32,671 bases of DNA from Cytophagales bacterium. GTDB taxonomy: Bacteria > Bacteroidota > Bacteroidia > Cytophagales > Microscillaceae. The stretch spans positions 1 through 32,671 of the forward strand of contig JAAFIN010000024.1 in NCBI GenBank assembly GCA_013297825.1. Reading direction: 5' to 3'. How positions within the stretch are numbered: the first letter of the stretch is position 1; every line of letters starts with the position of its first letter. The position numbers were made by a program, and so were the translations under genes. Shown one piece after another: positions 149 to 19,923 of the stretch. The notes beneath the pieces were generated by a model that searched no databases, was not told the origin of the DNA, and saw nothing but the letters and a program-made list of their open reading frames with translations.

Positions 149-174
149 TTTAGAATAATTCTAAATTACGTTTG
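149..174 (+). promoter_or_regulatory. hemA promoter with Fur/PerR-type palindrome
   Basis: Bases 149-165 read TTTAGAATAATTCTAAA, an 8-1-8 palindrome whose core TTAGAATAATTCTAA fits the 7-1-7 layout of Fur/PerR-family boxes. Two bases further on, TACGTTTG (167-174) matches the Bacteroidota -7 consensus TAnnTTTG. The operator would therefore cover the -33/-7 spacer, the classical place for repression. No convincing -33 TTTG is visible. The start of transcription would be near base 181. Metal- or peroxide-responsive control of heme synthesis is inference. Confidence 0.5.
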
Positions 175-275
175 ATTTTTAAAAATTAGCCTTTTGAGGT
201 GTATTTTTGTAAAAAAACTAATGTAGTATCAAAATAAAGAAAAACCAATTTAATAAATAATTGGTTGAAGTAATT

Positions 276-1556
276 ATGAGTTATCACACCAGCCAATCCT
301 TTAAAGCCATTGTACTTTCTTACAAAAAAGCATCTGTTGCTTTGCGTGAGCAGGTTGCACTTACCCAAGAAGAATGTAAGGAAATATTATATTTTTTGAA
401 AAATATACCTGAATGTAATGATATGCTCGTGATTTCTACGTGCAATCGTACTGAAATATATTACAATGCCCCAAAATCTTACCAAACCGAAATCTTAGAT
501 TTTCTTTGTGATTTTAAAAAAATGAACAAAGAAACCACTCAATATTTTCAAGAATTAGAAGGAAATGAGGCTGTAAAACATCTTTTTAGGGTTACATTAG
601 GTTTAGAATCACAAGTAATTGGCGACCTCCAAATTATCAACCAAGTAAAACAAAGCTATCAACTTTCTGCTGATGAACAAACAGCAGGGCATTTTTTGCA
701 TAGATTATTACATACAATATTTTTTACCAATAAAAGAATTGTTCAAGAAACGCCTTTTCGCAGTGGAACTGCCTCTGTGTCTTATGCTTCTGTGCATTTG
801 ATTGAAGAATTGGCATTAGAAACCCCAAATCCAAAAGTGCTTATTTTGGGTGTGGGCGAAATAGGAGCTGATGTGTGCAGAAATTTGAAAAATAACAATG
901 AAGTAGGCGAAGTAATTATTTGTAATCGTACTTTTGAAAAAGCCCAACATCTCGCAGAAGAATGTAATTTTGGTACAATTCCTTTTGAACAAGTGCATCA
1001 AGCTATCAAAGAAGCTGATATTATTGTATCGTCTTTGCAAATGGAAAATCCTTTTGTTACCAAAGAAAATTCGCTTTTTTCACAACTTTGGTCTTATAAA
1101 TATTTCATTGACCTGTCTATGCCTCGCAGTATTTCGCCTGAAATGGAAGAAATATCTGGCGTGTTGATTTATAACATTGACCAAATAAATGTAAAAGTCA
1201 ATGAAGCCCAACAAAAACGCCTTGCTTGTATTCCACAAGTGGAAAATATTATGGAGGAAGCCTTAGAAGAATTTGGTGTTTGGGTGAAAGAAATGGAAAT
1301 TTCGCCTACTATCCAAAAACTAAAACAAGCCTTAGAACAAATTAGACAGGAAGAAATGGCAAAATTTGCCAAAAAACTCAACGAAGAAGAAACCCAAAAA
1401 ATAGAGCAGATAACCAAAAGTATGATGCAAAAAATCATCAAACTTCCTACGCTCCAACTTAAAGCTGCGTGTAAAAGGGGAGAAGCTGAAACTTTGGTTG
1501 ATGTGTTGAATGACCTTTTTAATCTGAATCAGGAATCAGTAGTCAGGAATCAGTAG
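276..1556 (+). CDS. hemA: Glutamyl-tRNA reductase HemA
   Basis: Reduces glutamyl-tRNA(Glu) with NADPH to glutamate-1-semialdehyde, the first committed step of C5-pathway tetrapyrrole synthesis; cytoplasmic. From the ATG at 276 (426 aa) the catalytic motif ISTCNRTE puts the nucleophilic Cys at residue 56. GLESQVIGDLQIINQVKQSY is the glutamate-recognition signature, FRSGTASVSYASVHL follows it, and LGVGEIGADVC is the Rossmann loop for NADPH. The C-terminal dimerisation helices are present. An in-frame TTG at 261 is possible, but the family start fits 276. Oddity: after the normal end DVLNDLFNL the frame runs into an intergenic short tandem repeat that supplies about the last nine residues (NQESVVRNQ) and the stop codon. 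A Fur/PerR-type box lies in the promoter. Confidence 0.95.
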   Translation: MSYHTSQSFKAIVLSYKKASVALREQVALTQEECKEILYFLKNIPECNDMLVISTCNRTEIYYNAPKSYQTEILDFLCDFKKMNKETTQYFQELEGNEAVKHLFRVTLGLESQVIGDLQIINQVKQSYQLSADEQTAGHFLHRLLHTIFFTNKRIVQETPFRSGTASVSYASVHLIEELALETPNPKVLILGVGEIGADVCRNLKNNNEVGEVIICNRTFEKAQHLAEECNFGTIPFEQVHQAIKEADIIVSSLQMENPFVTKENSLFSQLWSYKYFIDLSMPRSISPEMEEISGVLIYNIDQINVKVNEAQQKRLACIPQVENIMEEALEEFGVWVKEMEISPTIQKLKQALEQIRQEEMAKFAKKLNEEETQKIEQITKSMMQKIIKLPTLQLKAACKRGEAETLVDVLNDLFNLNQESVVRNQ

Positions 1557-19354: not shown

Positions 19355-19393
19355 CAAATATACACAAAATTTATTATTTAGAAATAATCTAAA
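19355..19393 (-). promoter_or_regulatory. DUF4856 gene -7 box with Fur-like palindrome upstream
   Basis: On the minus strand TATATTTG (19355-19362) matches TAnnTTTG exactly. An imperfect palindrome, TTTAGAAATAATCTAAA (19377-19393), lies about 15 bases upstream and has the same TTTAGA-TCTAAA ends as the hemA box. With the palindrome at 19312 it brackets the promoter. Confidence 0.5.
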
Positions 19394-19527: not shown

Positions 19528-19923
19528 ATGCGTCATTCATTAAAAAAAATTGCCTTTTTATTTTCTGTTTTATTTTGTCTTGCATTTCAAATACAAGCAC
19601 AAGACAGTCCTATAAAAGTAAAATATGAATTTAAACAAATGACTGCCATTGAGTCAGTGGTTCCTGGTGGTTTGGGTCGTTCTCGTTTGCTTACAACGGA
19701 CAAAAATGGCAAATCAGAAATTATCAAATTGGATAATTTTTTTAGTTTGGTAGGTATCAATTTTGATAATATTCAATCAAACGACCAAATTATTACCCAA
19801 AGAATAGAAGCTCTTAGCAATGATGGTTGGGAATTAATGGCAACCAATGCTGGTGCTTATGGTTCAGAAGGTAGCACAGGTATTTTTATTACAAGATACA
19901 TATTTCGCAGACCAAAAATGTAA
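19528..19923 (+). CDS. Small secreted DUF4177-like protein
   Basis: 131 aa with a signal peptide (LFSVLFCLAFQIQAQ, cleavage near residue 24), so probably periplasmic or secreted. The end of the mature part has ALSNDGWELMATNAG and then IFITRYIFRRPK. That is the pattern (LnxxGWELv ... yxfkR) of DUF4177-type small alpha/beta proteins whose role is unknown. An upstream TATGTTTG (19455-19462) could be the -7 box. It has its own terminator, so it is probably monocistronic. Confidence 0.7.
   Translation: MRHSLKKIAFLFSVLFCLAFQIQAQDSPIKVKYEFKQMTAIESVVPGGLGRSRLLTTDKNGKSEIIKLDNFFSLVGINFDNIQSNDQIITQRIEALSNDGWELMATNAGAYGSEGSTGIFITRYIFRRPKM

Follow-up and report, generated by a model that had tools for sequence, protein, structure and literature searches.

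The hemA locus and its upstream palindrome

The window, that is, the whole 32,671-nucleotide stretch of DNA analyzed here, carries near its start a hemA gene for glutamyl-tRNA reductase (426 aa; positions 276 to 1556, plus strand), an assignment made in the original prediction and confirmed by a TIGR01035 score of 327 bits (cut-off, 209.55). The gap in front of hemA contains TTTAGAATAATTCTAAA at positions 149 to 165 (no strand assigned), a perfect 8-1-8 inverted repeat, as first described, with the core TTTAGAA-N3-TTCTAAA. Over its inner 15 bases it differs from the PerR consensus TTATAATnATTATAA by one symmetric position per arm, and this earlier reading of the sequence is also correct. The only two matches to TAnnTTTG before hemA in the window are TACGTTTG at positions 167 to 174 and TATTTTTG at positions 202 to 209, both on the plus strand; one base separates the palindrome from the former, and the latter begins 36 bp past the end of the palindrome. 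The original prediction placed the hemA promoter box at the abutting match, which is indeed present, but its role as a promoter does not hold up. TAnnTTTG stands 0 to 3 bp past the box in only 1 other of 41 box-bearing hemA promoters, so TACGTTTG is probably a chance match, and we rejected it as the hemA promoter because it is not conserved and the conserved element lies further downstream. TATTTTTG fits the TAnnTTTG of relatives and is the likely -7 promoter element of hemA.

A short hairpin (positions 243 to 266, plus strand) with an 8-bp stem and an 8-nt loop is present in the predicted 5' untranslated leader of hemA. Its predicted fold is weak (-7.6 kcal/mol; z, -2.0), in that 9 of 200 shuffled versions do equally well or better. 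Short near-repeats resembling AATCAGGAATCAGTAGTCAGG can be seen by eye just 3' of hemA (positions 1530 to 1600), and a second, weaker match to the palindrome, TTTAGAAATAATCTAAA (two mismatches), is at positions 19377 to 19393, upstream of an unassigned 131-aa open reading frame at 19528.

The host genome assembly (5.06 Mb; 362 contigs) has a completeness of 95%. A genome-wide scan supports the box when matches are exact: there are two such sites in the host genome against none for a reversed-pattern control, and 35 sites in 30 genomes when the host genome and 76 relatives are searched together (n = 77), again with none for the control. Looser searches of the host genome alone showed no enrichment, either with up to two mismatches (40 versus 33 for the control) or with an N-centred pattern and up to one mismatch (15 versus 34), and the case thus rests on comparison and conservation. 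The lack of enrichment among loose matches is what a chance palindrome in AT-rich intergenic DNA would give, but the enrichment of exact sites and the spacing at hemA speak against chance, and conservation at hemA already refutes it; we consider this reading scarcely credible.

Conservation and spacing at hemA

Among 45 hemA upstream regions (the window plus 44), 34 have a site with at most two mismatches to TTTAGAANNNTTCTAAA, compared with 1.4% of shuffled 350-bp stretches. The numbers rise to 38 of 45 at up to three mismatches (8% of shuffled stretches) and to 41 of 45 at up to four (39%). Most of the Cytophagales families examined retain the candidate box in front of hemA, and loss of the palindrome from relatives, named at the outset as part of the grounds for abandoning the idea, is not what these regions show. 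In a second set of 48 loci from named Cytophagales (HemA identity of at least 39%; L327 omitted because the gene is cut, and L346 added), 28 have the box followed by TAnnTTTG at 45 to 48 bp. This arrangement was not found in the ten Hymenobacter loci, three of the four Pontibacter loci, and some others of the 48; the box itself is absent upstream of hemA in Hymenobacter, most Pontibacter, and a few other loci.

The distance between the box and the -7 element is strongly constrained. In the 41 box-bearing hemA promoters, TAnnTTTG begins 46 to 47 bp past the box in 28, at 45 or 48 bp in 2, at 36 to 37 bp in 4 (36 bp in the window), and at 42 bp in 1, and was not found in the remaining 6; shuffling predicts 0.36 hits at offsets of 44 to 50. 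The 36- to 37-bp class is one helical turn nearer than the 45- to 48-bp class. The 47-bp spacers of different families share 32% identity (27.5% when shuffled) and their boxes 79%, which indicates that spacer length is kept while its sequence drifts. The predicted operator is thus held at a nearly fixed, helix-phased distance (36 to 37, 45 to 48, or 57 bp) from TAnnTTTG, upstream of the core promoter, as is characteristic of activator sites.

A TTG at -33 is no more frequent in the hemA promoters than expected by chance (2 of 35; 3.6 when shuffled), and is found in 14 of 29 uptake promoters (2.8 when shuffled) and in 13 of 19 promoters of iron-using genes other than hemA. The hemA promoters lack this element, as an activator-dependent promoter might.

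Two further features of hemA upstream regions were observed. A TGA-N6-TCA palindrome of the FNR/CRP type lies between the box and the -7 element, 10 to 15 bp after the box, in 11 of the 41 box-bearing promoters, a raw count (G001, G008, G022, G037, G038, G052, G053, G061, G066, G067, and G072). This is where an activator beside the -33 region would sit, and the site is absent from the hemA promoter in the window. In 12 Flavobacteriaceae loci (L339, L341, L343, L344, L348, L351, L354, L356, L357, L358, L361, and L362) the box is at a constant 132 to 133 bp before TAnnTTTG, outside the three phased classes, and may belong to another gene.

Two kinds of placement across the order and beyond

We surveyed 390 genomes of the order for an exact box followed by TAnnTTTG within 61 bp, which gave 124 matches (52 + 72) compared with 10 (7 + 3) for reversed controls, with offset peaks at 0 to 5, 27 to 29, 39, 45 to 47, and 57 bp. 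From 97 distinct matches with a locus, 26 without a usable or identified downstream open reading frame and 11 classed as other were dropped before counting. Gene labels come from BLAST against proteins collected in this analysis, with a Pfam check on 20 proteins; those of ActA, SdhC, NuoA, haem oxygenase, Fe-ABC, and SufS were given by eye or from general Pfam/NCBIfam hits rather than an equivalog model.

Placement differs between iron-using genes and genes of iron uptake or starvation. Twenty-four matches precede iron-using genes, namely those for HemA, ActA of alternative complex III, aconitase, SdhB, SdhC, NuoA, and a NapC/NirT-family (nrfH/napC-like) cytochrome, and 23 of them are at 35, 44 to 47, or 56 to 57 bp; the exception is an ActA site (L385) with the box at offset 1. 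By contrast, only 1 of the 36 matches before uptake or iron-starvation genes (TonB receptors, PepSY, imelysin, SufB, SufS, flavodoxin, and Mrp) is phased, the others being at 0 to 15, 26 to 33, 38 to 39, or 52 bp. That one is a TonB receptor site (L250) with -7 matches at both 27 and 37 bp, counted as phased under the rule that the farther of two matches is taken. Fisher's test of gene class against phased placement gives 2e-14, a value to be read in light of the fact that the sites are related by descent, so that the counts are not phylogenetically independent, and that the hemA data were already known when the phased classes were set. By eye, several uptake promoters with an offset of 39 also have another, weaker box closer to the -7 element. 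The actA site of the host genome and several other actA promoters have no exact TAnnTTTG in range. We also note that a box at 27 to 29 or 39 bp, as in uptake genes, recurs before genes for small proteins (about 107 aa) that belong to DUF6686 or look similar to it (L239, L241, L242, L243, L232, and L379).

A later, class-level search covered 284 genomes outside the order at offsets of 31 to 61 bp, a range that says nothing about uptake genes, and yielded 67 matches (controls, 3) with peaks at 45 and 56 to 57 bp. Of the identified iron-using sites, 21 of 22 are at 35 to 37, 44 to 48, or 55 to 58 bp, classes that make up 39% of the allowed offsets and to which 55 and 58 were added at scoring. The ladder of 35, 45, and 56 to 57 bp recurs outside Cytophagales.

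Which regulator reads the box

Riemerella anatipestifer, also a member of the Bacteroidota, has a 19-bp Fur box, ATTTAGAATTATTCTAAAT, and four promoters including that of hmuR were gel shifted (PMC5609570). The window palindrome TTTAGAATAATTCTAAA with its 3' T differs from it only at the first flanking base and at the symmetric centre. Written as TTTTAGAATAATTCTAAAT, it has one flank base different from the Bacteroidota Fur-box palindrome ATTTAGAAT-N-ATTCTAAAT, and boxes in relatives precede iron-uptake genes of this lineage, including those for TonB-dependent receptors, PepSY proteins, imelysins, haem oxygenase, and Fe-ABC binding proteins. Because the window box matches that of Riemerella, Fur is a better label for it than PerR.

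The distribution of regulators points the same way. We recovered 90 Fur-family proteins, 77 with Glu and 13 with Asp at one iron-site position, a difference that we take to separate Fur-like (E-type) from PerR/Irr-like (D-type) proteins. An E-type Fur, with a His/Glu iron site and CxxC, is present in all 14 family relatives examined, and D-type proteins, which lack CxxC, occur in 13 of the 77 genomes. Where hemA carries the box, the genome in most cases encodes an E-type Fur but not a D-type protein. The original prediction drew a parallel with Bacillus subtilis, in which hemA is a PerR target. Peroxide control of this kind is in keeping with the single symmetric difference per arm and with the PerR/Irr-like protein in the host genome, but the position that departs from TTATAATnATTATAA is mostly G/C in relatives, the sequence is that of the Riemerella Fur box, the co-regulated genes are those of iron uptake and iron use, and a D-type protein is missing from most of the genomes that carry the box. 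The part of the original prediction that placed a Fur-family operator at hemA is supported by its retention in relatives, and the PerR parallel is not; we rejected the latter on regulator distribution and regulon content, and consider peroxide control very unlikely.

The reader of the box in the host organism itself is uncertain, because the only Fur-family members found there are a D-type protein (C179; 140 aa, no CxxC) and a Zur-like protein. No E-type Fur was found in the 95% complete assembly, and there is no fur beside relA or purA, where it is present in a relative. Two explanations present themselves: fur falls in the 5% of the genome that is missing, or the D-type protein has taken over. 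The latter, replacement of Fur by C179 at this box, is favored by C179 being the sole Fur/PerR-like member found besides the Zur-like one, but is rendered rather improbable by the E-type Fur of all the family relatives examined, by an assembly that is fragmented and incomplete, and by the site upstream of the C179 gene, TTAAGAATAATTATTAG, which is unlike the hemA box. Because of this question we are less confident about the host organism, though no less so about the class-wide pattern.

The D-type genes have upstream sites of their own. The PerR-box-like TTAAGAATAATTATTAG is 48 bp before the start of the C179 gene (L152), and similar TTATTA palindromes are upstream of the D-type genes in G028, G059, and G072, which suggests that these genes may control themselves. 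In G067 (L094), hemA and a D-type PerR/Irr-like gene are divergently arranged on either side of the box.

A proposed role in activation

Taking these comparisons together, we propose that the palindrome is probably a Fur operator at an activator position and that phased boxes mark iron-use genes; the position of the box argues for activation over classical repression. If the -7 element, as assumed for Bacteroidota promoters, ends a few bases before the transcription start, the box centre would be roughly 60 to 80 bp before the start, on a constant face of the helix and within reach of the polymerase alpha subunit. An iron-loaded Fur dimer on the upstream box would contact RNA polymerase in a class-I-like manner, such that Fur would raise transcription of hemA and other iron-use genes when iron is plentiful. 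The same Fur would repress uptake genes from boxes beside or over the promoter, and in iron shortage it would leave, haem synthesis would fall, and uptake would rise.

The same physiology is predicted if the box is instead a repressor site, at which iron-free Fur or another family member lowers hemA and iron-use genes in iron shortage, an iron-sparing logic like that of Irr. The core TTTAGAA-N3-TTCTAAA, which we take to be the alphaproteobacterial Irr box (iron control element, ICE), fits such repression, as do the scores of D-type proteins against IrrA/Irr and PerR models and the D-type gene divergent to hemA in G067. However, where a -33 region exists, the box lies some 23 bp before it and would presumably be a poor block to polymerase, D-type proteins are in fewer genomes than the hemA box, and several D-type genes have PerR-like TTATTA palindromes upstream instead. 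We therefore regard repression from this box as unlikely, and favor activation by Fur.

Published expression data bear on activation by Fur in different ways. In three Bacteroidales, sdh and other iron-using genes fall in low iron, according to the available portion of PMC10434189, and iron-using genes such as sdh also fall in low iron in Riemerella (PMC5609570). In the Riemerella fur deletion mutant, sdh and an alternative complex III (ACIII) subunit still fall in low iron, and no drop in sdh or ACIII is listed for the mutant in iron-rich medium (PMC5609570); these data lend no support to activation of sdh and ACIII by Fur. The same mutant retains a strong iron response of hmuR, a gel-shifted Fur target (PMC5609570), which makes the sdh and ACIII data difficult to interpret in either direction. 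This test may be blurred by a second iron regulator or by a feature of the experiment.

More broadly, we suggest tentatively that iron-loaded Fur could be a direct class-I-like activator of an iron-use regulon (haem synthesis, alternative complex III, aconitase, complex II, and complex I) across Bacteroidia, contacting polymerase from any of three helical steps upstream of -7, while the same box elsewhere represses uptake; promoter geometry would then act as a code for one regulator. Activation by Fur has precedents in Neisseria and Helicobacter, and the phased, class-wide design is new as far as we have found. Phased upstream Fur boxes in Bacteroidota are not reported in the portions seen of the open-licence PubMed Central literature (including PMC6613475, PMC9331221, PMC9478572, PMC10434189, PMC4222909, and PMC3788343), and neither is Fur at hemA or alternative complex III. 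The part of a review that we consulted (PMC3788343) leaves open whether activation by Fur involves contact with RNA polymerase, and conserved phased placement over many genomes offers clean promoters for testing that contact. If correct, the proposal would explain how haem and respiratory-chain synthesis are linked to iron in a phylum without an evident Irr, as well as the low-iron falls of sdh in three Bacteroidales in the available portion of PMC10434189.

Comparison with known systems

The Bacillus subtilis PerR box resembles the window box at all but one position per half of the inner 15 bases and likewise has hemA downstream. It differs in having another conserved base in each arm, and regulon content and regulator distribution here point to Fur.

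The Irr box of alphaproteobacteria shares with the window box its core and its haem and iron-use targets, and it is this 7-3-7 core, together with the Irr-like sequence of the C179 protein, that led us to entertain an Irr reading. The window site has this core, and the centre is variable in relatives. The Irr system differs in that D-type proteins are missing from most genomes bearing the box, and an Irr orthologue is not evident in the host genome, whose D-type protein falls well short of the Irr/IrrA cut-offs (NF045677, 67.7 versus 170 bits; NF045678, 72 versus 150 bits). We retain the Irr reading only as a rival.

The Riemerella regulon is like that of the Cytophagales box in that both include uptake and imelysin genes. 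Fur in Riemerella differs in being described as a repressor near the start codon (PMC5609570), and the portion of that report available to us describes no box at hemA, actA, or aconitase and no phased upstream position.

There is also a functional likeness to Fur-activated genes of Neisseria meningitidis (norB, aniA, and nuoA) and Helicobacter pylori (oorB), which have the box upstream, as against repressed uptake genes with the box over the promoter, in the available part of PMC3788343. The activated set there includes the nuo operon, as does the phased set in Cytophagales. Whereas those boxes are about 100 to 130 bp upstream in the same partial source, the boxes described here are 36, 46, or 57 bp from the -7 element, and are helix phased, class-wide, and inclusive of hemA.
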